Counted from the stretch's first letter, positions 24,972 through 52,650 are shown. The stretch is DNA of 64,000 bases from Elusimicrobiota bacterium (GCA_016180815.1 JACPAN010000011.1:62001-126000); one strand, 5' to 3'. Notes: a model not told the origin generated them from the letters alone. Program-made: numbers and translations.

Positions 24972-25924
24972 GCCGGAAAATTTTAGGGCTGGCCGCCCGC
25001 GTTCTTGAGATCGAGGAGCAGGGGCTTCGCGCGACGCGCAAGGCTCTGGGCCGCGATTTTCTTCGGGCCGTCGATGTTCTCAAATCCTTGCGCGGCCGCG
25101 TCATCGTCATCGGCATCGGCAAATCAGGCTTAATCGGGCGCAAGCTGGCCGCGACCCTGACCTCAACCGGCACCACGGCAGTATTCATGCATCCGGCCGA
25201 GGCGCTTCACGGCGATTTGGGGATGCTGGCCGCCGGGGACGCGGTGTTGGCTCTTTCCTTTTCCGGTGAGACGGATGAGATCAGAAAAATTCTTCCTTAC
25301 GCCAGGGACTTGGAGGTTCCGGTCGTCAGTTTGACGGGATCGCGGCATTCCAAACTGGCCCGTGAATCGAGCATCGCCCTTGTCGCGCCGGTGCGGCGTG
25401 AGGCGTGTCCTTTTAATATTACGCCAACGGCCTCGACTACCGCCATGCTGGCGTTGGGGGATGCGCTGGCCATGGCCTTAATGGAAGCCAAAGGCTTCAA
25501 GAGAGAGGATTTTGCCCGGCTTCATCCGGGGGGATCGTTGGGCCGGCGTTTGAACTTAAAAGCCAAGGATATTATGCGCCGGGGCGCCATGAACCCCGTC
25601 ATCCGCGATAACCGCCTGACGCGGGAGGCGCTGTTGGTTATGACCAAAACGCGTTCGGGCGCCGTTAATGTGGTGGACAAGGCGGGCCGCTTGGTCGGCT
25701 TTTTTACGGACGGTGATTTGCGCCGGCGTTTGAATAAAAACGGCGTCGGTTTTTTGGCCAGGCCCGTCAAAGAGGCGATGACGCCCAAGCCGCTCTCGGT
25801 TTCTCCGGAAGCGACGCTGGAGGATTTGCGGCGGCTGTTTAAAAACCGGCCTTTCGACAACGTGCCCGTGGTCGACGGCCGGGGCATTCCGGTCGGCCTG
25901 GTTGATGAACGCGACCTCCTCTAA
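24956..25924 (+). CDS. kdsD: Arabinose-5-phosphate isomerase
   Basis: 322 aa, makes D-arabinose-5-phosphate from ribulose-5-phosphate for KDO synthesis. SIS domain: VIGIGKSGLIGRKLAATLTSTGT, HPAEALHGDLGM, LSFSGETDEI, then NITPTASTTAMLALGDALA and FARLHPGGSLGRRL. Two CBS domains occupy the last ~115 residues (IMRRGAMNPVI; VKEAMTPKPLSV). Length is full. GTG start 24956 overlaps the zinc-ribbon gene by 16 bp; the end overlaps mfd by 20 bp. Confidence 0.95.
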   Translation: MAQQISRKILGLAARVLEIEEQGLRATRKALGRDFLRAVDVLKSLRGRVIVIGIGKSGLIGRKLAATLTSTGTTAVFMHPAEALHGDLGMLAAGDAVLALSFSGETDEIRKILPYARDLEVPVVSLTGSRHSKLARESSIALVAPVRREACPFNITPTASTTAMLALGDALAMALMEAKGFKREDFARLHPGGSLGRRLNLKAKDIMRRGAMNPVIRDNRLTREALLVMTKTRSGAVNVVDKAGRLVGFFTDGDLRRRLNKNGVGFLARPVKEAMTPKPLSVSPEATLEDLRRLFKNRPFDNVPVVDGRGIPVGLVDERDLL

Positions 25925-28900
25925 GTCCATCCCTATTCGCAATTCTTTTCATCCTTATCTTTTCCTCCGGTTTATTTATCCTCAGGCCCCCGAAGGCAAA
26001 TGGCTGGTTCTTTTCCACCATGAGCTTGAAGCCAGGGATTTTTTAAGAGAAACCGAGGCCTTAGCATCCATCCTCGGTTGCCCGCAGCCGGCGTTGTCGT
26101 TTTTGCCCGACACTGAAGCGGCCCCGCGTCAAATCGCGCTTCGCGCTTTAGCCGAAGGCGAGATCAGGGGGATCGCGGCGACGCCGTTTGCCGTTGAGAA
26201 AAAATGCGCGAGTTTGGATTCCTGGTCCCAGCGCGCCGTTTATTTGAAAACCGGATCAATCATGAGCCGAGAGGAATTGATCCGGCGGCTGATGGCGTTC
26301 GGTTTTCACCGCGCGGACGCGGTGGAAGGGCCGGGCGAATTTGCCGTTCGCGGGCAGATTCTTGATTGTTTTACGGCCGCCGACGAGTCGCCGATGAGGC
26401 TTGTTTTTAACGGAGATTCCATCGAATCCATCCGGGTGTTCGATATCGAAACTCAGCTGACCAGTTCGTTTCGCCCTTCGGCCTTGATTATTGCCGCAGC
26501 CGAGGGTTCCGGCGGCTCCTTGAAGGATTACGCCCGGGAGCAATGGAATCTTGTCTGGGAGAGACCGGATCTTCAAAACAACACCCTTGATTTTAAGGTT
26601 GCCCGGCAATGGGTGTTTGCATCCCTTGAAGCCCAAGCCCAAAGCCAGGACGTCACCGTTAATCATCCTTATGCGGGCAATGTGGGATTGTTTTTGAAAC
26701 AAGCCGTTGCCGCGGCCGGGCAGGGCTATAAAATTCATCTGGTCGCTCCCACGGCCGGAGATGAAGAGCGTTCTCGGGAAATTTTAGAAGAGGCGATGCG
26801 CCGTGATGGTTTGCGCTCCGAGCTTCATTTTCATTGGTCCGTCGCAGCCATGGGCTCGGGCGTCAAAGACGAACCCAACGGCCTTTGGCTCGTCAATACC
26901 AGCGAGATTTTTAGCCGCATGCCGGTCAAAATCAGCCCGCCGGCGCCGATGAAGCCCAAAAAAGGCCGCAAGGCGGGTCAAACGACGTTTCAGAGGAGCT
27001 TGCTTGAGCTTAAACTCGGCGAATACGTGGTTCACGAGGTATTCGGGATCGCCCGTTATCGCGGCCTGGAAAAAGTTTTGGATATGGAGGGAAATCCCAG
27101 GGGCGAGTTTGTGCGACTGGATTTCGCCAAAAGCGACAAGCTGTTTTTAAATCCTGAGGAGATGCATTTTATCCATCGCTACGTGACGCTCGGCGCGCGC
27201 CAATCGCCCCGCTTGTCCTCCCTGGATGCCCGCAGCTTCGCTTTAGTCAAATCCCGCGTGCGCGAAGAAGCGAAAAAATTTTGCGAGCGTTTGTTGAAGT
27301 TGTGGGCCAAGCGTTCGGCTTTGCCCGCGCCTTCTTTAAGCGCGTCTTCCCATTGGGAGAAGGAGTTTGCGGAGAGTTTTCCTTACGAAGAGACGGAGGA
27401 TCAGAAAAAAGCCATTGAGGAAATCATCGGCGATCTGGAAGAGAAAAAACCCATGGAACGGCTTTTGTTGGGCGACGTGGGTTTCGGCAAAACCGAAGTA
27501 GCGCTAAGGGCCGCGTTTCGCACGGCCGCCAACGGCAAACAAGTCGTTGTATTGGCGCCGACCACGGTTTTAGCCGAGCAGCATTACCGAAACTTCGCTC
27601 AGCGTTTCGCCCCTTACCCGATGACCTTGGGGTTGTTTTCGCGTTTCGTCAAGCCGGCCCAAGTGCGCCGTCAATTGGCGGCCTTGGCCCAGGGCAAGCT
27701 CGATATCGCGGTCGGCACCCACCGGCTTCTGCAAAAAGACGTGCGCTTTAAAGACCTGGGGCTTTTAATCGTTGATGAAGAGCATCGTTTCGGCGTTCGG
27801 GATAAAGAACGGCTGAAGTTTTTGAGCTCCCAAGTGCATACGCTGTATTGTTCGGCCACACCCATCCCCCGGACATTGTCCTCGGCTTTATCCGGGATGA
27901 AAGGCATCTCCATCATCGAAACGCCGCCCGTTGGGCGTTTGCCCATCGAGACGGTGGTCGGCCCATGGGACAAGGCCGTTATCGAGCGCGCGCTCCGTTA
28001 TGAGTTGGGGCGCGGCGGGCAGGTTTTTTATGTGTTTAACGACATCGCCCGTTTGCCGGAAATCGTCCGCGAGCTTGAGCAATTGGTGGACGGCCTACGC
28101 GCTTCGGTCTGCCATGGGCAAATGAGCGCTTCCTCCATCGAAGGCGCCATGCAGCGTTTCCTTTCGAGGGAAAGCGATGTGCTGGTCGCCTCATCCATCA
28201 TTGAGTCGGGATTGGACATCCCCACGGTCAACACCCTTATCATCGAAGGCGCGGAAAATTTCGGCCTGGCTCAGCTTTATCAGATTCGCGGGCGCATCGG
28301 CCGTAAGGATTTGAAAGCTTACGCTTATCTTTTTTATCCGCGCGGCCGGCGTTGGGATGATTTAAGCGCCACGGCGCAGGAGCGCTTGCGCGCGGTCCGC
28401 GACTTTGCGCAATTGGGATCGGGCATGCGTTTGGCGCTGCGGGATTTGGAAATTCGCGGGGCGGGAGAAATTTTGGGCACGAAACAGCACGGGTTTGTTT
28501 CGCGCGTGGGGCTGGAGCTTTACTCAAAATTGATTCAAGAGGAAATGGATAAGCTCAAAGAGGGGCGCTCCGACGACCAAGAGCGGCCGGCTAACCAGCA
28601 GGACGGGTGGCCTAAGATTCATTTGGATTTTTCCTCCTATTTGCCGGAGGATTATGTTTCCAGCGAAATGGAGCGCGTTTCCTATTACCGGCGCCTTTCC
28701 GGCGCTCGAACCGAGGCCCAAATCAATCTTGTCTTCGAAGAACTGCACGATCGGGCCGGAGCGCCGCCCGCCGAGGCTAAGAACCTGAGGACATTTTTCC
28801 TCGTGCGCCTGCTGGGCCGGCAATTAGGGTTGGCCGTTCTCGAACAAATCGACGGCGATCGCCTGCGCTTCGAGTTTCAGGACACGGCCAAGCCCAAGGG

Positions 28901-29045
28901 GCGCATGGTGGCGTGGCTCCTAGGCCAATACCAGGAGCGGGTCCGTTTTGAATCGGAGAAACATGCTTTTAAGCTGGCCTTGTCTCAAGCGCCTACGCCC
29001 GAAACCGTTGAAGATCTCACCCGGCAATTGACCCAGCTTTTTTAG
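25905..29045 (+). CDS. mfd: Transcription-repair coupling factor
   Basis: 1046 aa SF2 translocase that removes stalled RNA polymerase and recruits UvrA. N-terminal UvrB-like region (shorter than in E. coli, 1148 aa total there), then the RNAP-interacting domain with YVVHEVFGIARYRGLEKV. The motor has Walker A LGDVGFGKTE (about 522-531), the DEEH box LLIVDEEHRFGVRDKE (about 620) and the TRG-type motif LAQLYQIRGRIGR. The C-terminal TRCF domain is present (LPEDYVSSEMERVSYYRRLS). Start ATG 25905 lies inside kdsD's last codons. Confidence 0.96.
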   Translation: MNATSSKSIPIRNSFHPYLFLRFIYPQAPEGKWLVLFHHELEARDFLRETEALASILGCPQPALSFLPDTEAAPRQIALRALAEGEIRGIAATPFAVEKKCASLDSWSQRAVYLKTGSIMSREELIRRLMAFGFHRADAVEGPGEFAVRGQILDCFTAADESPMRLVFNGDSIESIRVFDIETQLTSSFRPSALIIAAAEGSGGSLKDYAREQWNLVWERPDLQNNTLDFKVARQWVFASLEAQAQSQDVTVNHPYAGNVGLFLKQAVAAAGQGYKIHLVAPTAGDEERSREILEEAMRRDGLRSELHFHWSVAAMGSGVKDEPNGLWLVNTSEIFSRMPVKISPPAPMKPKKGRKAGQTTFQRSLLELKLGEYVVHEVFGIARYRGLEKVLDMEGNPRGEFVRLDFAKSDKLFLNPEEMHFIHRYVTLGARQSPRLSSLDARSFALVKSRVREEAKKFCERLLKLWAKRSALPAPSLSASSHWEKEFAESFPYEETEDQKKAIEEIIGDLEEKKPMERLLLGDVGFGKTEVALRAAFRTAANGKQVVVLAPTTVLAEQHYRNFAQRFAPYPMTLGLFSRFVKPAQVRRQLAALAQGKLDIAVGTHRLLQKDVRFKDLGLLIVDEEHRFGVRDKERLKFLSSQVHTLYCSATPIPRTLSSALSGMKGISIIETPPVGRLPIETVVGPWDKAVIERALRYELGRGGQVFYVFNDIARLPEIVRELEQLVDGLRASVCHGQMSASSIEGAMQRFLSRESDVLVASSIIESGLDIPTVNTLIIEGAENFGLAQLYQIRGRIGRKDLKAYAYLFYPRGRRWDDLSATAQERLRAVRDFAQLGSGMRLALRDLEIRGAGEILGTKQHGFVSRVGLELYSKLIQEEMDKLKEGRSDDQERPANQQDGWPKIHLDFSSYLPEDYVSSEMERVSYYRRLSGARTEAQINLVFEELHDRAGAPPAEAKNLRTFFLVRLLGRQLGLAVLEQIDGDRLRFEFQDTAKPKGRMVAWLLGQYQERVRFESEKHAFKLALSQAPTPETVEDLTRQLTQLF

Positions 29046-29098: not shown

Positions 29099-29130
29099 GA
29101 GAAGCAGTTATGCGTTGAGGAGGTAATTTG

Positions 29131-30786
29131 ATGCGATTGATGGGATGGATGGCCGTTGTTGCGGTTGCGTCAACACCGATTTTAGCCGAGCAAGTTAATG
29201 TTGTGACCCAGTACCCTTCGCCTTTGGGTGTCTATAAGCTGTTGCGCACCGCCGGGGACACATTTTTAGCCATGAGCAACGGCAACGTGGGCATCGGCGC
29301 CAATCCGGCGCGTTCGAAATTGCATGTTTTTCAGAATGTCAACGGCACGGTTCCGGTTTATGTCGGCAATTCCAATACCGGGGCCAGCGCTAGCACCGGA
29401 TTTTTTCTTTCCGACATAGCGCCGGCCAGCGGGGTGGGCGTGTGGGCGGGCATTTGGGGATTCAATGCGACGAAGGAATTCAGGATCGTCAATTTTGATC
29501 CCAGCGGCCCGATGACGTTTAACACCGGCAGCGCGCCGTCGGAACGAATGCGCATCACCAGCGGCGGCAATGTCGGCATTGGAACCGCAAGCCCGTCGCG
29601 GCGCCTGCACGTGCAGGGCGATGCTTATGTGTCCGGCAAGCTGGGCATCGGAACCGCAAGCGCGATCAATAAGCTCGATGTTTATGAACCTTCGGCCAAT
29701 AGCGAGGCCAGCGTCCGTCATGGCGGGACCGGAGCCAACGCCATTCTTTCCTTCTACGAAGGCTCGACTCAGCAAGCCGCTTTAATTGCCAGGGGTTCGG
29801 GCATTGCCGGGGGACCGCCCAATGCCTTGAATATATACACTTATGTCGCCGGCGCCCCGATCACGTTGGGCACGGACAGCGGGGAGAAGGTGCGTATTAT
29901 GGATTCCGGTTCCATCCGCGTCGTCAGCCAGGACAATTCATCCGCCGGTTTCAATATGAAAGCGGGGGGCAGCACGTGTTTGGGCGGCTCCGGCACGATG
30001 TGTTGGTTTTCCATCCTAGGGGGGGCTTCCGGCGCCGCGCCGTCTTATTCCAACTATGCCTTGAAAATCATCGCGTCTTCCGTAGGAAATACGATTTCAA
30101 TCGATAGCCAGGACGGAACTCAAACCTATTCCATTCTGCAATTGTATTCGGATTATCCCAATCCCAACGACAGAAAGTTTCATTTCAGAAACGACGGCAA
30201 TGCTTATGCGGATTCAAGCTGGAACGGCGGCGGCGCCGACTTGGCCGAGTTGATGCCCGTGGCCGAGCAGAATTTAGAGGAAGGCGATGTGGTGGCTTTA
30301 TCCTCTGAGATGATTGATGTGAGTTACGAGGAGGAGCCTGCCCGCCGGTTTGATCCGGCTAAGATGGCCGGTTTGCGAAAGGCGTCTTCGGCTTACGCTC
30401 AAACCGTGGGCGTCATTTCCAGTCAGCCGGGGTTGATGACGTCCAGCGGCTTAAGAAAGGCTAAACCGGTTGCCTTGCAGGGCCGTGTGCCGGTCAAAGT
30501 AACCTCGGAAAACGGTCCGATTGCGGTCGGCGATCGTTTGGCCGCTTCCAGCCGTTCGGGTTATGCGATGAAAGCCGTCAAACCGGGGCATGTCATCGGG
30601 ATTGCCTTGGAACCGTTCGACGGTCAATCCGCTCGTGAAGGAAAAATTATGGTTTTTCTTCAGCCTACCGCATGGTCAGGCGATCTGGCCGACGACATGG
30701 CGCGCTTACGCCGGGACAATGAGTCCTTGAAGCTGCGTCTGGATAAGCTGGAGAAGCGCACCGCTAACGCCACTCCCCAAGATTGA
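29131..30786 (+). CDS. Secreted fibre-like repeat protein 1 (peptidase-G2-like C-terminus)
   Basis: 551 aa. Signal peptide about 1-20 (cleavage near LAEQ). A constant N-terminal motif VTQYPSPLGVYKLLRTAGDTFL is shared with three downstream paralogues. The body carries repeats of N-V-G-I-G-T followed by L-x-V (residues about 50, 150, 172), the pattern of trimeric tail-spike/adhesin stalks. Residues about 369-520 form a domain starting DLAELMPV with GDVVAL, GVISSQPG, GRVPVKVTSENGPI and GDRLAASS, similar to C-terminal self-processing/chaperone (peptidase G2-like) domains of phage spikes. A short coiled coil ends it (NESLKLRLDKLEKRT). Likely exported, surface-exposed and oligomeric; function inferred. 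Strong GAGGAGG ribosome site 7 bp upstream. Confidence 0.85.
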   Translation: MRLMGWMAVVAVASTPILAEQVNVVTQYPSPLGVYKLLRTAGDTFLAMSNGNVGIGANPARSKLHVFQNVNGTVPVYVGNSNTGASASTGFFLSDIAPASGVGVWAGIWGFNATKEFRIVNFDPSGPMTFNTGSAPSERMRITSGGNVGIGTASPSRRLHVQGDAYVSGKLGIGTASAINKLDVYEPSANSEASVRHGGTGANAILSFYEGSTQQAALIARGSGIAGGPPNALNIYTYVAGAPITLGTDSGEKVRIMDSGSIRVVSQDNSSAGFNMKAGGSTCLGGSGTMCWFSILGGASGAAPSYSNYALKIIASSVGNTISIDSQDGTQTYSILQLYSDYPNPNDRKFHFRNDGNAYADSSWNGGGADLAELMPVAEQNLEEGDVVALSSEMIDVSYEEEPARRFDPAKMAGLRKASSAYAQTVGVISSQPGLMTSSGLRKAKPVALQGRVPVKVTSENGPIAVGDRLAASSRSGYAMKAVKPGHVIGIALEPFDGQSAREGKIMVFLQPTAWSGDLADDMARLRRDNESLKLRLDKLEKRTANATPQD

Positions 30787-30799
30787 ACGATAACCCATA

Positions 30800-30834
30800 T
30801 TGCGTTCATCGGTTGATCGGTTTACCCTTATAAA
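30800..30834 (+). promoter_or_regulatory. Shared upstream block of fibre gene 2
   Basis: TTGCGT (30800-30805), then TTTACCCTTATAAA (30821-30834). Spacing from TGCGT to TTTACCC is 20 bp, identical to the block before fibre gene 4. TATAAA may be the -10. It is followed by a G-run ribosome site (GGGGGTG) before the ATG at 30852. Confidence 0.45.
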
Positions 30835-30851
30835 CAGAGACGGGGGTGTAT

Positions 30852-32420
30852 ATGAGCAATAAAACAGGCGTTTTCGGACTATTCCTTTTATTGACGTGGC
30901 CTCTTTCAGCCGAAGAGGTGCGCGTCGTAACTCAGTACCCCTCGCCGTTGGGCGTTTATAAAAATATCCGCACCGTAGGCGATACGTTTTTGGCGGTCAC
31001 TGGCGGCAATGTGGGCGTTGGGACAGCTAGCCCTTTGACCAAATTGGATGTCTATGGGGCGAGTCCCATGGTCTCTATCCGTCATAATGCAACAACGGAC
31101 TGGGCTTATCTTCGATTTTATCAGGCATCGACGCTGCAAGGAGATATTATTGCCTATGGATCCGCCACGGGTCTGCCTAACAGTCTTAGCATTATCAATT
31201 ATACGGCCACCGGCCCGCTTGTTTTTGCTACCGCAGGTATAGAAAGAATCAGGATAACCAGCAGCGGCAACGTGGGCATCGGTACGACGAGTCCGTCAGC
31301 GCCGCTGGCTATCTATTCAGGTTTGAATACAGCAAACGATAACGGTTTAAGAATATGCAATACGGTCGCAGGCGATACAAACTGCAGCCATTTTCACTGG
31401 GGTACAAACAAGGATGTTTATATACGCAGCGGTTCAGCTTCTGGAAGGGTTATTGTTCAGGACACGGGGGGTAACCTGGGCGTGGGCACGGCGGCGCCAT
31501 CCAACAAGCTTCATGTTTATTCCAGCGCGGGCTGGGATGGGATTCGGCTGGCGGGCGGAACCGCTGCTACGGGGATCAACATTATGATGAGCAACAACAA
31601 TAATTATGCATATCATTTGGGAGTGACGGGCAGCGCCAACGCGGCATCGCCAAATGCATTTTCCATCTGGAACAACAATACCTCATCTTTTCCCATGCTT
31701 ATTAAATCGAACGGCAATGTTGGCGTCGGGACGACAAATCCTTGGGGTAGATTGGAGGTCGCCAGCGACGGGGCGGGCACAGGTTCGGCGATTTTGACGA
31801 TCCATAACACAAATAACGGTTTGGCCGGGCTTTACTTTCGCCATGACAACAGCGGTTCAGCGACATGGACGCTCCAAGCGACCGATCCCAGCGGCCCGGC
31901 CGACGGAAAAATGGTTGTTTTGGCTTCGGGCGCCCGCGATTTCGGCATCAGCATCAATGGCAGCGAGCGGCTGTCGATTCTTAGCGGTGGCAATGTGGGC
32001 ATCGGCGACACCAGCCCTGATTACAAGCTAGAGGTCAACGGCAGCGCGGGAAAACCCGGCGGCGGCTCCTGGTCGGACTCATCCGACGCCAGATTAAAGA
32101 AGAACATTAAACCCTTAGAGGGCTCCCTCGATAAAATACTACAGCTTAAGGGAGTCAACTATGAATGGAAAGAGCCGGGAAAGCACGGCAATTTAACGGG
32201 CGCCCGCATGGGCATGATCGCCCAAGACGTGGAAAAGGTTTTCCCGCAATGGGTAGGCGTCGATTCCCAAGGGTATCGAACGCTAACCTTTATGGGTTTT
32301 GAAGCTTTGACCACAGAAGCGGTTAGGGAACTCAATGACAAAGTTAAAAAGCTTTCAGAGGAGAACGAAGCCCTGAAACTCCGCTTGGACAAAATGGAAA
32401 AACGCACGGCCGGGCGATAA
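30852..32420 (+). CDS. Secreted fibre-like repeat protein 2 (peptidase S74 C-terminus)
   Basis: 522 aa. Signal peptide about 1-20 (VFGLFLLLTWPLSAEE), then the constant VVTQYPSPLGVYKNIRTVGDTF motif. Several GNVG(V/I)GT repeats each start a beta-rich module (SPLTKLDVYG, SAPLAIYSG, SNKLHVYS, WGRLEVAS, YKLEVNG). The C-terminal domain (about 405-490) begins DSSDARLKKNIKPLEGSLDK, the hallmark of the S74 intramolecular chaperone, where Ser and Lys form the self-cleaving dyad; MGMIAQDVEKVFP follows. It ends in a coiled coil NEALKLRLDKMEKRTAGR. Predicted trimeric surface fibre that releases its chaperone after folding. Start ATG 30852; GTG 30846 is an alternative. Confidence 0.87.
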   Translation: MSNKTGVFGLFLLLTWPLSAEEVRVVTQYPSPLGVYKNIRTVGDTFLAVTGGNVGVGTASPLTKLDVYGASPMVSIRHNATTDWAYLRFYQASTLQGDIIAYGSATGLPNSLSIINYTATGPLVFATAGIERIRITSSGNVGIGTTSPSAPLAIYSGLNTANDNGLRICNTVAGDTNCSHFHWGTNKDVYIRSGSASGRVIVQDTGGNLGVGTAAPSNKLHVYSSAGWDGIRLAGGTAATGINIMMSNNNNYAYHLGVTGSANAASPNAFSIWNNNTSSFPMLIKSNGNVGVGTTNPWGRLEVASDGAGTGSAILTIHNTNNGLAGLYFRHDNSGSATWTLQATDPSGPADGKMVVLASGARDFGISINGSERLSILSGGNVGIGDTSPDYKLEVNGSAGKPGGGSWSDSSDARLKKNIKPLEGSLDKILQLKGVNYEWKEPGKHGNLTGARMGMIAQDVEKVFPQWVGVDSQGYRTLTFMGFEALTTEAVRELNDKVKKLSEENEALKLRLDKMEKRTAGR

Positions 32421-32456
32421 AAACGCGCGATCTATTGAATAAGTTGGGGGTGTCCC

Positions 32457-34169
32457 ATGAGTAAAACAATAGGCGTTGTCGGTTTATTTATTTTAGTTGG
32501 AGTGCCTCTTTTGGCCGAAGAGGTGCGCGTGATCACCCAGTACCCGTCGCCCTTAGGTGTTTATAAGAATATACGCACTGTGGGGGACACCTTTTTGGGG
32601 GTTACTTCGGGCAATGTGGGCATTGGTACGGGCAGCACATCGGCCAAACTCTACGTCTATGCCGGCGGTACAAATCCAGGTATCCAGATAAGAGGCACAT
32701 CGGGGACGTATGGCCCTTCCATCGGGGTTCACAATGGCTCCCAAGAATGGAGGATGGTTTCTTGGAGCGACAATACCCTTAAGTTTGTTAAGGTAACGGG
32801 CGCCACGTTTACCCCTCTAACCATTCGTAACGATTCCGCTCAGGATTCTCTCTATATCGGGACTGGCGGCAATGTAGCCATTGGCACAAATAGTCCATTG
32901 CAAAAATTTCACGTGCAGGGCGACGCCTATGTCAACGGTAATTTGGGCGTTGGGACCAGCAATCCAACGGAAATTTTGCATGTTTATAAAAATAGTAATA
33001 GCGGCCTGTGGCATCGGGTGGAGAATGCCTACAATGGTAGCGCTGCTTATGCTGCTCTTATGGTTCGCGCCGGCGGTGCGGGATGGGACGGCTGGGGCAA
33101 TAGAGGTTGGATCGCCAAGGAACCCGCGCTCCATCCGAGTTTTCCGAGCTATATGCGGATTGTCCAGTATGAGAATGCCCCATTGGTTTTGGCGACTTAC
33201 AATACCCACCGTTTAACCATACTCGGTAATGGCAATGTCGGCATCGGCACGGAAACCCCTAGTGAAAAATTGCAGGTTGATGTCGGCAGTGGGCATGCAG
33301 AGATATATCGTTCAGCTGGAGGAACGGATGCCGCGTTGCGCATTCGAAAAAACGATTCAGATGCAGCAGGCGTTTATTTTTATCATGGAACTAATCTTTA
33401 TGCGACCGTAACATCTTTCGGCAACACCGGCAATTCCAACGAGGATGATTTACGCTTTACGGTAAGAGATTATGACAACGACGGCGTTGGCGGCGCTTAC
33501 GCTTTCAATGTAATCACGGGAGGCGGCGTATGGACCGAGGCTTTGACCATCGCCAATAACGCGAATGTCGGCATCGGCGACACCTCTCCCGACGCCAAGC
33601 TTGACGTTGCCGGTAATTGCATTGAGCAGGACGGCAATTGCGCTGATATCGCTGAATTGTATGCAGCGTCCGAAGAGATGGAGGCGGGGGACGTTGTTGC
33701 CGTCAATGACGCCGATTCGTCATTCATTGAGAAGTCACGCCCCGGAAAAACGGCGCTGGGTGTTGTTTCGATGGCCCCGGCCATACTTTTTGAGGAGGAT
33801 TCTCAGCTTATCGGCGTAGGGTCTTCCTACAAAATCGACCCGAGGAAGCCTGCCGTGGCTTTGGCGGGCAGGGTGCCGGTTAAGGTGACAATAGAGAACG
33901 GCCCCATTAAGAAAGGGGATTACTTAGCCCCCTCGGCGATAAAACCCGGCTACGCCATGAGGGCGACCAAGGCCGGGCGTGTCATCGGCACGGCGCTGCG
34001 CGCGTTCGACGGGTCAAAAGACAAAGAGGGGAAGATTTTGGTTTTCATCAACCCCCATTGGTGGGAAGGCGAAAAAAAGATAGATGACCAGATTGCAGTG
34101 CTTCGCCAGGAAAACGAAGCTCTGAAGCTGAGGATGGACAAGCTGGAAAAACGCACGGCCGGGCGGTAA
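32457..34169 (+). CDS. Secreted fibre-like repeat protein 3 (peptidase-G2-like C-terminus)
   Basis: 570 aa. Signal peptide (GLFILVGVPLLAEE), constant VITQYPSPLGVYKNIRTVGDTF motif and at least five NVGIGT-type repeats (about 57, 141, 162, 260, 375). The C-terminal domain from about residue 396 (CADIAELYAASEEMEAGDVV, GVVSMAPAI, GRVPVKVTIENGPIKKGDYL) matches fibre protein 1, whereas its terminal coil NEALKLRMDKLEKRTAGR matches fibre protein 2. Only 36 bp separate it from gene 2 and no promoter block is seen, so it is probably cotranscribed with gene 2. Its leader GGGGGTGTCCC-ATG is the same as that of gene 4. Confidence 0.86.
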   Translation: MSKTIGVVGLFILVGVPLLAEEVRVITQYPSPLGVYKNIRTVGDTFLGVTSGNVGIGTGSTSAKLYVYAGGTNPGIQIRGTSGTYGPSIGVHNGSQEWRMVSWSDNTLKFVKVTGATFTPLTIRNDSAQDSLYIGTGGNVAIGTNSPLQKFHVQGDAYVNGNLGVGTSNPTEILHVYKNSNSGLWHRVENAYNGSAAYAALMVRAGGAGWDGWGNRGWIAKEPALHPSFPSYMRIVQYENAPLVLATYNTHRLTILGNGNVGIGTETPSEKLQVDVGSGHAEIYRSAGGTDAALRIRKNDSDAAGVYFYHGTNLYATVTSFGNTGNSNEDDLRFTVRDYDNDGVGGAYAFNVITGGGVWTEALTIANNANVGIGDTSPDAKLDVAGNCIEQDGNCADIAELYAASEEMEAGDVVAVNDADSSFIEKSRPGKTALGVVSMAPAILFEEDSQLIGVGSSYKIDPRKPAVALAGRVPVKVTIENGPIKKGDYLAPSAIKPGYAMRATKAGRVIGTALRAFDGSKDKEGKILVFINPHWWEGEKKIDDQIAVLRQENEALKLRMDKLEKRTAGR

Positions 34170-34219
34170 AAAGACCCATTTTTTGAACCCGGCTCCCCAA
34201 AAATAGGTGACGACCATTC

Positions 34220-34255
34220 TTGCGTATCAAGAGCCGTGGCTTTACCCTTAAATTA
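34220..34255 (+). promoter_or_regulatory. Shared upstream block of fibre gene 4
   Basis: TTGCGT (34220-34225) and TTTACCCTTAAATTA (34241-34255), with the same 20-bp offset as before fibre gene 2. Located in the 107-bp gap between genes 3 and 4, followed by GGGGGGTGTCCC and the ATG at 34277. Confidence 0.45.
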
Positions 34256-34276
34256 GGTGTTGGCGGGGGGTGTCCC

Positions 34277-35815
34277 ATGAACAGAAAATTAGGCGTTTTC
34301 GGTTTATTTATTTTAGTTGGAGTACCTCTTTTGGCCGAAGAGGTTCGCGTGATAACCCAGTACCCTTCGCCTTTAGGCGTTTACAAGAATTTACGTACGG
34401 TAGGCGACACATTTTTAGCGGCGACCAGCGGCAATGTGGGCATCGGCGCCTATCCCGCGCGCTCCAAACTGCATGTTTTCCAAAATGTCAATGCCACGGT
34501 TCCGGTTTATGTCGGCAATTCCAACGGCGGGGCCAGCGCCAGCACCGGATTTTTTCTTTCGGAGACGAACCCGGCCAGCGGGGTAGGCGTGTGGGCGGGC
34601 ATTTGGGGATTCAACGCGACGAAAGAATTCAGGATCGTTAATTTCGACGCCGGCGGCCCCATGACGTTTAATACCGGCGGCGCTCCTTCTGAACGAATGC
34701 GCATTACCAGCAGCGGCAATGTGGGCATGGGAACGACCGGGCCGTTAAAGAAATTGCATGTGCAGGGCGATGCCGTCGTAACCGGTATTGTCGGGGTCGG
34801 CACGACGGGCCCCAACGCGCTTCATCGTCTTGAAGTGCATCACGGTGCGGCTGCGCCTGCGATCGCCATTTTTAACACCAATGACGCCCTTTACGGCACT
34901 TTAGGTTTTTACAATTTAAGCGCTCCGGCCAGCATCAGGGGAGCGGTTACTCTTTTCGGACCTTCAAATGCCACTTACCCCAACCATTTCAAAATTCACA
35001 ATTACAATGCCGGTCCCATAACATTTTTCACCGGAGCCGCTTCGGAACGCATGAGAATAACCAGCAGCGGCAATATCGGTATCGGCACTGTGAGCACAGA
35101 CCATTCCGTACGGGGGATTACGAATACCTACGAGCTGAAACACCAAGCGGGAACTTATGCCATGGTTGTTGGTAACGATAACTCTTTTGTGCGAATCAAT
35201 ACAGGGGGCAACACCCGGATCGGGCTCGGTGACGGCGACAATAACAGGGAGGCAGGGTTTATATCCGGCGGCGAGAATGCCTCGGGAGAAAATGTCATCC
35301 AGATCGCAGGCTGTGATGACCTTGGTAATTGTCCAACTTACACCACATTCCATCAAAACGGCCGCGTCGGCATCGGATTTAATGATCCCGATGTGCTGTT
35401 GGACGTCAACGGAAGTATTCATTATGTAGGCTCGTCCTCAGCGCACTCCTCGCGAAAGCTTAAGAAGGATATTGAACGAGTGGAGGATCGAGATTACAAA
35501 GAGATGTTGCTTGAACTGGAAACGATGCCTCTTTATCGATACCGCTATCGGGTGGGCGATGATCAGAACAGAAAATATTTCGGCTTAATCGCCGAAGAGG
35601 CGCCGTCATTTGTAGTCAATAAAGATAATTTGACGATTCCGACAATGGATTACATTTCTTTTATAGCCGGAGCTCTTAAGGCCGAACGGGCTGAGGTGAA
35701 AGTTCAGGGTCAGGAAATCGATTTGCTGAAGGAACAAAATAGGGCGCTGCAAGCCGAGAATCGAAATCTCAGGGATCGAATAGGCAGAATCGAACGACAG
35801 ATTAATTCTAAGTAA
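34277..35815 (+). CDS. Secreted fibre-like repeat protein 4 (S74-like C-terminus)
   Basis: 512 aa. The signal peptide and N-terminus are nearly identical to fibre protein 3 (GLFILVGVPLLAEE, VITQYPSPLGVYKNLRTVG). Residues about 55-170 are nearly identical to the same region of protein 1 (SKLHVFQNVN, ASASTGFFLS, GVGVWAGIWGFNATKEFRIV). The C-terminal domain starts near residue 385 with HSSRKLKKDIERVEDRDY, keeping a Ser and Lys pair as in S74 domains, then KYFGLIAEEAPSFV. It ends in a longer coiled coil (LKEQNRALQAENRNLRDRI). ATG 34277 is preceded by GGGGGGTGTCCC. An in-frame start at 34220 is disfavoured because it would bury the signal peptide. Confidence 0.86.
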   Translation: MNRKLGVFGLFILVGVPLLAEEVRVITQYPSPLGVYKNLRTVGDTFLAATSGNVGIGAYPARSKLHVFQNVNATVPVYVGNSNGGASASTGFFLSETNPASGVGVWAGIWGFNATKEFRIVNFDAGGPMTFNTGGAPSERMRITSSGNVGMGTTGPLKKLHVQGDAVVTGIVGVGTTGPNALHRLEVHHGAAAPAIAIFNTNDALYGTLGFYNLSAPASIRGAVTLFGPSNATYPNHFKIHNYNAGPITFFTGAASERMRITSSGNIGIGTVSTDHSVRGITNTYELKHQAGTYAMVVGNDNSFVRINTGGNTRIGLGDGDNNREAGFISGGENASGENVIQIAGCDDLGNCPTYTTFHQNGRVGIGFNDPDVLLDVNGSIHYVGSSSAHSSRKLKKDIERVEDRDYKEMLLELETMPLYRYRYRVGDDQNRKYFGLIAEEAPSFVVNKDNLTIPTMDYISFIAGALKAERAEVKVQGQEIDLLKEQNRALQAENRNLRDRIGRIERQINSK

Positions 35816-35923: not shown

Positions 35924-36802
35924 GTGCGCCGGATTTTTGGGATTCTTGCCTTCTGTTCTCTATTGTCCGTTTCTTGCGCCCGTAATAGCGTTAAGCCGGG
36001 CGCCGGCGATCAGGATGCTGTTTTGCTTAAACTCGGGCCCGTTTATTTGACCAAGGCGGAGATGGAAGCGCGCATCTTGGAAATGGGCCCGGAGTACGTG
36101 CCTTATCTGCGAACCGGGCAAGGCAGAAAAACCCTGCTCGAAGCCGTTCTGAAGCAGAAAATTTTGGTTCGCGCGGCTTTAGACCGGGGTTTGGGCGACC
36201 GGCAGGATATTAAAGACGAGATCGTCAGGCTCAAAAAAGAGCAGGAGAGGGCCCTGAGGCTTTACAGGGAGAGCTTGTTGGCCGATCGCTTGATCGAAGA
36301 TTTGAGGGAGCGGGAAATTCAGATATCAGACGATGAAATCGCCGCTTATTATAACGATCACCGGCATCTTTATGCGGTGCGCCAAATTTTGGTCGCGGAC
36401 AAGAAAAAAGCTGAGGATCTGTTCGAAGGGCTGCGCGGCAAAAATCCAGCCCAAGCGCAAGTGGAATTCGGGCGTTTGGCCGCTTTGCATTCCCTTGATT
36501 CGCGCAGCGCAAAGGCGGGCGGCAAAATCCCTCCGTTTTTGGAAGGCGAGCTCGATGAGAGCTTCGCGCGCGCGACCGCGGCTTTAAAACCAGGGCAGGT
36601 TTCGCCGCCGGTCGAAACTAAAGTCGGGTATCATTTGATTCATCTTGAGAACACCGCGCCCGTTTCGTTCAACGACGAATATAAAGAGCGGGCTCGCAGG
36701 ATTTTGGAGCGCAAGAAAATGGATGTCTTGATGGAACTATGGAAAGACAAATATGTGGTGGAGGTGCGTGATGAAAGTCTTAAACCGTATTTGGGGCTTT
36801 AA
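35924..36802 (+). CDS. PpiC-type peptidyl-prolyl isomerase, probable lipoprotein
   Basis: 292 aa. The N-terminus RRIFGILAFCSLLSVSCAR looks like a lipoprotein signal with Cys18 as lipidation site (lipobox not ideal). A SurA/PrsA-like N-terminal helical region (LTKAEMEARILEMG, LKQKILVRAAL) is followed by a parvulin domain (VRQILVADKKKAEDLFEGL, FGRLAALHSLD, GGKIPPFLEGELDESF, VETKVGYHLIHLE). It assists folding of exported or outer-membrane proteins. GTG start. The following SurA-like gene begins inside its last 32 bp. Its closeness to the fibre genes suggests those may be clients, but mfd next to PPIase genes is also a common arrangement. Confidence 0.88.
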   Translation: MRRIFGILAFCSLLSVSCARNSVKPGAGDQDAVLLKLGPVYLTKAEMEARILEMGPEYVPYLRTGQGRKTLLEAVLKQKILVRAALDRGLGDRQDIKDEIVRLKKEQERALRLYRESLLADRLIEDLREREIQISDDEIAAYYNDHRHLYAVRQILVADKKKAEDLFEGLRGKNPAQAQVEFGRLAALHSLDSRSAKAGGKIPPFLEGELDESFARATAALKPGQVSPPVETKVGYHLIHLENTAPVSFNDEYKERARRILERKKMDVLMELWKDKYVVEVRDESLKPYLGL

Positions 36803-37916
36803 GCTCAAAAATTATTCGATTGTTTCGGCTGTTTTGACGGCATCAGCCGTTATGTTGTCCGGCGCTGAAGTTCTGGAAAAAACCGTAGCCACGGTCAACG
36901 GCGAAGCGCTTTATCAAAGCGATTTCGAGGCGAATGTCGGCAATGTGCTGGACGATTTAAGGCGAGCCGCGCCCGGTGAATTGATGGACGCCCAGGTGGA
37001 AGAAATCCGTTCCAAAGTGCTGGCTCAAATGATCGATGATTTGCTGCTCCTCCAGGAATCGAAGCGCCGGGGGGTTAAAGTCTACGCCAAGGATATCGAA
37101 ACCGGCGTCGCTGAAGTCAAAAATCGTTTCAAGAAAGACGAAGAAGGGCGTCCCGTGGCCGAGGCGGATGCGGATAAGGCGTTTCAAGCGGAACTCCGGC
37201 GCCAGCGGCTTTCATTGACCGATTTTGAGGAACGCATCAAAAAACAGCTCCATGTCATCAAGCTGGTGGACACTCAAGTCAAATCCAAGGTGGAGATGCC
37301 TTCGGAGAACGAAGTTCGCAGTTTTTTCGATCAGGTTAAGGGCGTCGTCGCTTCATCGGCCGCGGCCGGGAATCTGCGCGTCGGCGAGGAAGAGCGCCAG
37401 GAAATTTTAAAGCTTGCCCAGCTGTTCCGCGATCGCACCACGGAGCGCGTTCGGGCCAGGCATATTCTGATTAAAGTGGGACCCAAGGCTCCCATGGCCG
37501 AGAAAAGCAAGGCGCTGAGCGCTTTAAAATCAATCAAGAAAGAGGCCGATGCCGGCGCTGATTTCGCTGAGCTGGCGAGAAAACATTCCCAAGATACGGA
37601 GTCGGCCAAAAAAGGCGGCGACCTGGGGTACTTTATCAAGGGTTGGATGGTTCCTGAATTCGAACAAGCGGCTTTCAGCCTGCCGGTCGGCGATGTCTCC
37701 AATCCCGTGGAAACAGAGTTCGGTTATCATTTGATCTTGGTCGAAGAGAAACGGGCCAAGACGCCTCTGCGTTTCGACGAGGTGCAGGAAGACCTGGCGT
37801 CTTATCTCCAGCAGCGCAATTTCCAGAAGAAGCTTAAGGACCTTGTCGACGGGCTTCGTGTCAAGGCTACGATCAAAGTCTTGAACGATCCCGCGAAAAC
37901 CACGAGCGCTCCTTAA
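36771..37916 (+). CDS. SurA-like periplasmic chaperone / peptidyl-prolyl isomerase
   Basis: 381 aa. Signal peptide within residues 1-32 (IVSAVLTASAVMLSGAEV). SurA N-terminal domain: VATVNGEALYQSDFEANV, then LAQMIDDLLLLQESKRRGVKV. One parvulin domain: RARHILIKVGPKAPMAEK, FAELARKHSQDTESAKKGGDLGYF, FEQAAFSLPVGDVSNPVETEFGYHLI. E. coli SurA has two parvulin repeats; here there is one. The ATG 36771, preceded by GGAGGTG, is chosen over an in-frame ATG at 36753. It overlaps the previous gene by 32 bp. Confidence 0.9.
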   Translation: MKVLNRIWGFKLKNYSIVSAVLTASAVMLSGAEVLEKTVATVNGEALYQSDFEANVGNVLDDLRRAAPGELMDAQVEEIRSKVLAQMIDDLLLLQESKRRGVKVYAKDIETGVAEVKNRFKKDEEGRPVAEADADKAFQAELRRQRLSLTDFEERIKKQLHVIKLVDTQVKSKVEMPSENEVRSFFDQVKGVVASSAAAGNLRVGEEERQEILKLAQLFRDRTTERVRARHILIKVGPKAPMAEKSKALSALKSIKKEADAGADFAELARKHSQDTESAKKGGDLGYFIKGWMVPEFEQAAFSLPVGDVSNPVETEFGYHLILVEEKRAKTPLRFDEVQEDLASYLQQRNFQKKLKDLVDGLRVKATIKVLNDPAKTTSAP

Positions 37917-51540: not shown

Positions 51541-52650
51541 TTGAAATCAGCCATCGGACTTTATATTCACATTCCTTTTTGCCGCCGCCGTTGCGGTTAT
51601 TGCGCTTTTGCCACTGTTGCCAATGAGGATCGCGCGTTATGGGAGCGCTATCTCAACGCATTGCGCGTTGAAATGAAAGCTTGGACGGGTGTTGCCGTGG
51701 ACACGGTATTTTTAGGCGGCGGGACGCCTACTCTTTGGCCTGCGGATTTGCTGGTCCGTTTGGCCGGATGCCTAGGGGAATCGTTCGACATCAACAAAGA
51801 GGCTGAATGGACGATCGAGGGTCATCCTTCGACTTTAATCGGGAGCGAGGGGGAGGGAAAATTAGTCCGTTTGGTTGAATCCGGGTTCAACCGGTTAAGC
51901 CTGGGCATTGAAAGTTTCGAGGCTGGCACGTTGTCTAGATTGGGCCGCGAGTACAGCCTGGAGGATGCTGCGCGAGTTATCAGCGCGGCCCGCGCCGCCG
52001 GATTCGTCAATATTAATCTTGACCTGATTTCCGGTTGGCCCTGGGAGGATATGTCCGCGCACCGCCGTTCGCTGGATCAGGCGCTTTCGCTTCAACCTCA
52101 ACATATGAGCGTTTATTCCCTGAAAATCGAAGAGGGGACGCCCTTCGCCAAGGAAAAAATTTCGCTCAATTGCGACCTGCAAGCGGATTATTATCAGATG
52201 ACTCATGAGACGCTCGCGGCCGCGGGATTCAGGCATTACGAAGTGGCGAATTTCGCCCGTTTAGGTTTTGAGGCCCGGCATAATTTGAAGTATTGGCATT
52301 ATCAGGATTATCTGGGCCTGGGCGCGGCGGCCTCAAGCAAAATCAACGGAAAAAGTTTCGTGAATGCGCGCGGGCTTGACGCTTATTTGGAGCGCATGCA
52401 AGAAGGGCTTTCGCCGGCTGTCGATGAAGAATCGCTCGATGACGAAGAGATCAACCGGCGGCGGACGATTTTAGGCCTTCGGCTCGGCGAAGGCGTCGAG
52501 CAGGCGCTGCTTGAGCGCTATGGAGATCCTGAAGCCGTGAACAATTTCCGCAGTCGCGGCTATTTAGTCGAAGAAAACGGCCGGTCGCGTTTGACGCCCG
52601 ATGGCTGGCTCGTTTCCAATCAATTGTTTATCCATGTCCTTGCCGCCTGA
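51541..52650 (+). CDS. hemW: HemW-like radical SAM protein (coproporphyrinogen III oxidase family)
   Basis: About 369 aa. Radical SAM cluster CRRRCGYCAF in GLYIHIPFCRRRCGYC, GGGTPTLW, the FNRLSLGIESF substrate loop, NLDLISGWPWE, MSVYSLKIEEGTP, HYEVANFARLG and HNLKYWHYQDYLGLGAAASS, all standard for HemW, a heme chaperone. There is no ATG or GTG near the expected N-terminus; TTG at 51541, 22 bp after the previous stop, gives the correct start. A far upstream in-frame start at 51313 lies inside the SPFH gene. Confidence 0.9.
   Translation: MKSAIGLYIHIPFCRRRCGYCAFATVANEDRALWERYLNALRVEMKAWTGVAVDTVFLGGGTPTLWPADLLVRLAGCLGESFDINKEAEWTIEGHPSTLIGSEGEGKLVRLVESGFNRLSLGIESFEAGTLSRLGREYSLEDAARVISAARAAGFVNINLDLISGWPWEDMSAHRRSLDQALSLQPQHMSVYSLKIEEGTPFAKEKISLNCDLQADYYQMTHETLAAAGFRHYEVANFARLGFEARHNLKYWHYQDYLGLGAAASSKINGKSFVNARGLDAYLERMQEGLSPAVDEESLDDEEINRRRTILGLRLGEGVEQALLERYGDPEAVNNFRSRGYLVEENGRSRLTPDGWLVSNQLFIHVLAA

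Follow-up and report, generated by a model that had tools for sequence, protein, structure and literature searches.

Do phage-like fibre genes on a bacterial chromosome belong to a phage or to the cell that carries them? The question is raised by an island of four genes in an Elusimicrobiota bacterium (GCA_016180815.1; genome 2.85 Mb, 99.5% complete), which lies within the 64,000-nucleotide stretch of contig JACPAN010000011.1 (62001-126000) that we analyzed, hereafter the window; positions are counted from its first letter. Here we computed the gene layout and domain identities and found intact catalytic motifs, two chaperone folds, a conserved chromosomal slot and no phage genes. We propose, with a probability of about 0.7, that the four genes form a chromosomal cassette and that their paralogous products are secreted as homotrimeric adhesins of the cell surface, which shed their own chaperone. 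The cell appears to have turned the parts of phage tail fibres into adhesins of its own.

The interval between mfd and a parvulin gene contains four tandem + strand genes with intact ORFs (29131-35815). As the initial annotation described, these are consecutive genes for proteins of 510-570 residues, 512-570 by our count. All four share a common plan: a Sec signal and a conserved motif (TQYPSPLGVYK) come first, VGIGT loops mark the stalk, the middle varies, and a chaperone of phage type with its coiled coil forms the C-terminus. Fibre 1 (29131..30786, +; 551 aa) and fibre 3 (32457..34169, +; 570 aa) end in a domain of the phi29 gp12 type (hereafter G2-type), fibre 2 (30852..32420, +; 522 aa) combines five capping loops with an S74 domain, and fibre 4 (34277..35815, +; 512 aa) carries a divergent S74 domain. 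The likely starts are ATG codons at 29131, 30852, 32457 and 34277, each preceded by a purine-rich ribosome-binding stretch; for fibre 1 this is GAGGAGGTAATTTG, upstream of the ATG at 29131. An Rfam scan gave no match, an NCBIfam search gave no useful match, and promoter and terminator scans performed no better than on shuffled sequence. Elsewhere in the window, ARAGORN calls a tRNA at 51801-51893 (+) that has an unusable two-base anticodon and lies inside an ORF; this call is probably false.

The N-termini are consistent with export. Judged by hydropathy and by reading of the cleavage site rather than by a trained predictor, all four proteins have the claimed Sec signal: the start is short, the core is hydrophobic, and a cut site of small residues (ILA or LxA) precedes E-E/Q-V. 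For instance, the signal of fibre 1 (29131..29187, +) has its hydrophobic core at residues 8-20 and a probable cut after ILA. Beyond this core we find no other clear transmembrane stretch in any of the four proteins. A motif search places TQYPSPLGVYK shortly after the signal in fibre 1 (29206..29238, +), fibre 2 (30930..30962, +), fibre 3 (32535..32567, +) and fibre 4 (34355..34387, +). The initial annotation called this motif almost invariant; it is indeed conserved, but the “almost” can be dropped, as the motif is fully invariant in the four fibres. The 2.85-Mb genome holds exactly four copies of it, and none of a reversed-pattern control. Over the first 61 residues the mean column identity of the four fibres is 80%, falling to about 30-35% past that point, and the roughly 35 residues after the signal read EEVRVxTQYPSPLGVYKNxRTxGDTFLAxxxGNVGIG.

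To follow this N-terminus beyond the island, we carried out the search of related genomes that the initial annotation had proposed and found the motif family in 114 of the 295 Elusimicrobiota genomes sampled. In about 30 members that we read, the usual form of the motif is TYYP-[AS]-P-x-G-x-Y; most of these proteins are short (200-300 aa), and many have a C-terminal Cys-Cys. Across other Elusimicrobiota genomes (L022-L049), short exported proteins have TYYP[AS]PxGVY behind the signal together with a VGIGT loop, and they frequently end in Cys-Cys. The named records with relatives of the island N-terminus are Elusimicrobia groundwater MAGs, and none of the viral contigs searched encodes it. Among the loci read, the motif and a phage-type chaperone are joined only in the window genome and in a relative of the same family, G157. 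Since most relatives with the motif are short and lack a chaperone, the motif need not mean fibre anchoring, and this counts against our best explanation.

The initial annotation assigned the C-terminal domains to a single kind of self-cleaving phage chaperone. They are of phage type, but there are two unrelated types, S74 and G2-type. The candidate that all four chaperones are S74 was rejected, as Pfam places S74 (PF13884; cut-off 22 bits) only in fibre 2 (8.8e-19, 68 bits, from residue 411) and fibre 4 (2.4e-6, 28.2 bits). Membership of these two fibres in Peptidase_S74 is firm. In fibre 2 the chaperone and coiled coil span 32082..32417 (+), with the motif SDARLK, the dyad S411/K416 and a predicted self-cut before S411; in fibre 4 they span 35447..35812 (+), with SSRKLK, the dyad S391/K396 and a predicted self-cut before S391. 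A Ser and a Lys five residues apart are invariant in all 16 aligned S74 domains, and the same pair is the catalytic dyad required in both MyRF and endoNF (PMC8326128). An AlphaFold model of the fibre 4 domain (pLDDT 76) has MyRF ICA structures as its three best PDB matches (7dc3, E 5.7e-4). The junction DSSDARLKK, guessed from the sequence at the outset, coincides with the motif expected from S74 chemistry.

Fibres 1 and 3 end differently. Their G2-type chaperones with coiled coil, at 30238..30783 (+) and 33645..34166 (+), are 52% identical to each other over the DLAE-type domain and have no direct Peptidase_G2 match in the Pfam scan. Of the 52 aligned members of the DLAE-domain family, 36 do match Pfam Peptidase_G2 (best 3.7e-7), and the top PDB match of the family profile is 3gqh, the C-terminal fragment of phi29 gp12, aligned from its residue 1. 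The hhalign probability against phi29 gp12 is 42% with a profile of 7 sequences and 67% with 52. An AlphaFold model of the fibre 3 domain (pLDDT 87) finds phi29 gp12 at fold ranks 1 and 2 in the PDB (3gqh and 3suc, E ~1e-4), and its first viral fold match is a phage preneck appendage protein. Because the direct hhalign comparison is weak, the kinship of fibres 1 and 3 to phi29 gp12 rests on profile, motif and fold combined, partly by way of phage relatives and with weak profile scores. In the motif D-x-A-E, the D, A and E are invariant in 51 of 51 aligned sequences, and 3gqh starts at the same D, following the end of gp12* at residue 691 (PMC6542822). On these grounds we predict self-cuts just before D371 of DLAE in fibre 1 (numbered from the TTG at 29128) and before D397 of DIAE in fibre 3. 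The guess of DLAE as a junction thus fits the motif expected from phi29 gp12 chemistry. Genes for the DLAE domain occur in at least 278 viral contigs, and the domain ends a PA5oct virion protein annotated as detected by mass spectrometry.

Given two phage-type chaperones, could the island be a decayed prophage, or a recently captured tail-fibre cassette that sits here by chance? Consistent with this, the body of fibre 2 is 26-29% identical to phage tail fibres and many PHROG tail-fibre families match. However, the neighborhood is that of a cell. Among 30 flanking proteins scanned, 27 have a Pfam match, all housekeeping and none phage, in agreement with the initial claim that no phage genes are nearby. 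The flanks encode Mfd, CTP synthase, a DAHP/KDO-8-P-synthase-family enzyme, a SIS/CBS protein, two PPIC proteins, a carboxyltransferase, LptC, an ABC ATPase in the LptB position, HPr kinase, RapZ, PTS parts, LepA, signal peptidase and others. The initial annotation itself named a degraded prophage as the finding that would overturn its view, and we find neither structural, integration or lysis genes nor attachment repeats; no repeat of more than 6 bases, direct or inverted, occurs at the island junctions. In addition, the island's G+C is close to that of its neighbors, no phage record matches its DNA, no viral contig searched encodes fibre 4, and the phage protein matches, among those listed, all start past residue 60. 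Together with the signal peptides and intact frames of all four genes, the housekeeping flanks and a slot shared with other genera, these observations led us to reject a prophage, an origin that we consider highly improbable.

The slot itself is conserved. Its left border is mfd, the transcription-repair coupling factor (25902..29045, +), which is outside the system, and its right border is a PPIC parvulin, a probable lipoprotein (35924..36802, +), followed by a SurA-like PPIC chaperone (36753..37916, +); neither of the last two is fibre-specific. The relative G157 has the same neighbors, and the three fibre genes between them all belong to the DLAE type; in G174, also of this family, the slot holds one short motif protein and other genes. 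In a third relative, G295, where mfd and parvulin are on two contigs, each adjoins unrelated genes, and the two motif proteins are encoded elsewhere. Counting that of the window genome, slot synteny spans three genera of the family; the other two have 3 and 1 such genes there. In at least 10 genomes from seven other families, parvulin comes directly after mfd, and in most of them surA comes next. As the slot is closed in these genomes, the island is an insertion into an ancestral mfd-parvulin-surA order, and it is kept or refilled within this family. Across family relatives (L055, L054, L240 and L241) the mfd/parvulin gap resembles an insertion hot spot, holding fibres, other genes, or an ATPase with small genes that resemble a toxin-antitoxin pair.

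Another explanation is that the fibres are periplasmic or released, and that the chaperone is a folding aid without self-cleavage, above all in fibres 1 and 3. The genes adjoining the island include no dedicated outer-membrane anchor or secretion gene, which counts against surface retention, and two periplasmic PPIases lie downstream. The G2-like fold is also used by phage head trimers: in our fold search the beta-fold of the fibre 3 domain is found in phage head cement proteins, which to our knowledge are not known to cleave. However, the PPIases adjoin mfd in genomes that have no fibres and are therefore not specific partners; parvulin and SurA as dedicated fibre chaperones were rejected for this reason. 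The catalytic motifs, moreover, are intact in four of four fibres. We therefore regard periplasmic or released fibres as decidedly unlikely, and prefer surface adhesins that remove their chaperone.

How did four such genes arise? From near their starts, fibres 1 and 4 have 445 bases in common at 82% DNA identity but end in different chaperones, from which we conclude that modules have been swapped. What is new here is that, in a tandem array, two unrelated self-cleaving chaperones have been exchanged on one anchor. In the literature searched, which covered the main text of the paper on the closest known system, we found no report of these Elusimicrobiota fibres and no description of such an exchange. 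Whether Elusimicrobiota have built a diversifying adhesin cassette in which S74 and phi29-gp12-type chaperones are interchangeable on a lineage-specific anchor, in a fixed slot and for exported, non-phage use, is in our judgment evenly balanced.

Based on these data, we propose the following working model. Each fibre would be exported by Sec, and the conserved ~35 residues after the signal would form the cell-proximal end that holds the fibre on the surface. In the middle, three chains would form a beta-rich stalk that bears capping loops and a variable part for ligand binding. These chains would be joined by the coiled coil and chaperone at their C-termini while the beta stalk folds, and the chaperone would then cut itself off before S411 (fibre 2), S391 (fibre 4), D371 (fibre 1) or D397 (fibre 3), leaving a mature fibre of ~350-390 residues with an exposed tip that, with the variable middle, may bind ligand. 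Gene duplication and module exchange, including that of the two unrelated chaperone types, would have diversified the set. The tests that we ran support the initial view of exported chromosomal phage-like fibres with a chaperone that probably removes itself; trimerization, cleavage, surface display and anchoring, and adhesion we infer from work on Bdellovibrio fibres, endosialidase/MyRF and phi29. The role that we find most probable is adhesion, to cells or to surfaces. Contact killing, which had also been suggested, has no support, as Pfam finds no toxin domain in the four proteins.

The closest known system is the superfamily of mosaic adhesive trimer (MAT) fibres of Bdellovibrio bacteriovorus (Caulton et al. 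2024, PMC10769870). The capping-loop pattern given in its main text, VGxG-T-x-x-P-x-x-x-L, was relaxed here to [VIL]G[IVLMF][GN][TASDI]xxPxxx[LFM]. With this pattern we count 1, 5, 3 and 1 capping loops in fibres 1-4, above shuffles (<=0.003 per protein). By sequence, the solved structures nearest to the stalk include Bdellovibrio MAT chains (8ond, bd2133 and others), 6f45, which is a phage long tail fibre, and MyRF 7dc3. These matches, and the shared arrangement in which a signal is followed by a beta-rich stalk bearing the same kind of capping loops and then by S74 or another tip, suggest that the fibres could be true MAT superfamily members, inherited or transferred, for prey recognition. 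We consider this unlikely: the conserved ~130-residue N-domain of MATs is absent, only residues ~21-58 being conserved, as judged by conservation among the four fibres rather than by direct comparison with the MAT N-domain, and there is no evidence of predation in this organism. Because this domain is absent as a conserved unit, the adhesins of the island are MAT-like in their working and are not filed as MATs.

The same genome encodes other fibres. On contig 8 (L051:3712-6072), next to a PorV-like gene (PF19572), lies a VGIGT fibre of 786 aa whose N-domain differs (PDLMTYQGRL...); its architecture may resemble that of MATs more than the island's does. Contig 19 (L052:3696-9955) has two adjacent, very long VGIGT proteins, one of 1270 aa that has head-like repeats (NTFxGxxAG) and one of 805 aa, and contig 33 (L053:5493-7139) has a fibre with a DLAE domain that is cut by the contig end and is without the island N-terminal motif.

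If our proposal is true, MAT-like making of fibres from phage parts is not limited to bacterial predators, and the self-cleaving chaperones of phages are swappable parts for cells. It would also provide four exact predicted cut sites and a traceable lineage-specific anchor motif, and would hint at the means by which an uncultured phylum of groundwater may attach to cells or surfaces.

The island can be compared with three known systems. Like the Peptidase_S74 chaperones of endosialidase, T5 pb1 and MyRF ICA, fibres 2 and 4 have the Pfam match, the Ser-Lys dyad, a helix/coiled-coil end and, as modelled for fibre 4, a MyRF-like predicted fold; unlike them, the domains sit on exported bacterial proteins, and in fibre 4 SSxxxK replaces SDxxxK. 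Fibres 1 and 3 resemble the self-cleaving domain of phi29 gp12 (Peptidase_G2, 3gqh/3suc) in fold (as modelled for fibre 3), in the starting D-x-A-E, which marks the junction where gp12 is cut, and in the C-terminal site on a fibre that is probably trimeric, but are only 15-16% identical to it, have an added C-terminal coiled coil and belong to exported proteins of a bacterial host. As a type of system, the surface appendage first suggested for this locus holds up with the qualifications that a very similar kind, MAT, was already known and that the motif family is phylum-wide. As described in the text of PMC10769870, MATs are also chromosomal, with a signal peptide and the same capping-loop consensus on a beta-rich stalk (trimeric in MATs and predicted to be so here); some members end in S74 and the others in a different domain, paralogues are many and the make-up is mosaic. 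The island differs in that its conserved N-terminal part is different and much shorter, its genes are tandem in one slot, its proteins are about half as long, and its non-S74 members end in a phi29-gp12-like domain, which is not among the HD100 MAT end domains named in that text (beta-sandwich, TNF-like and C-type lectin).
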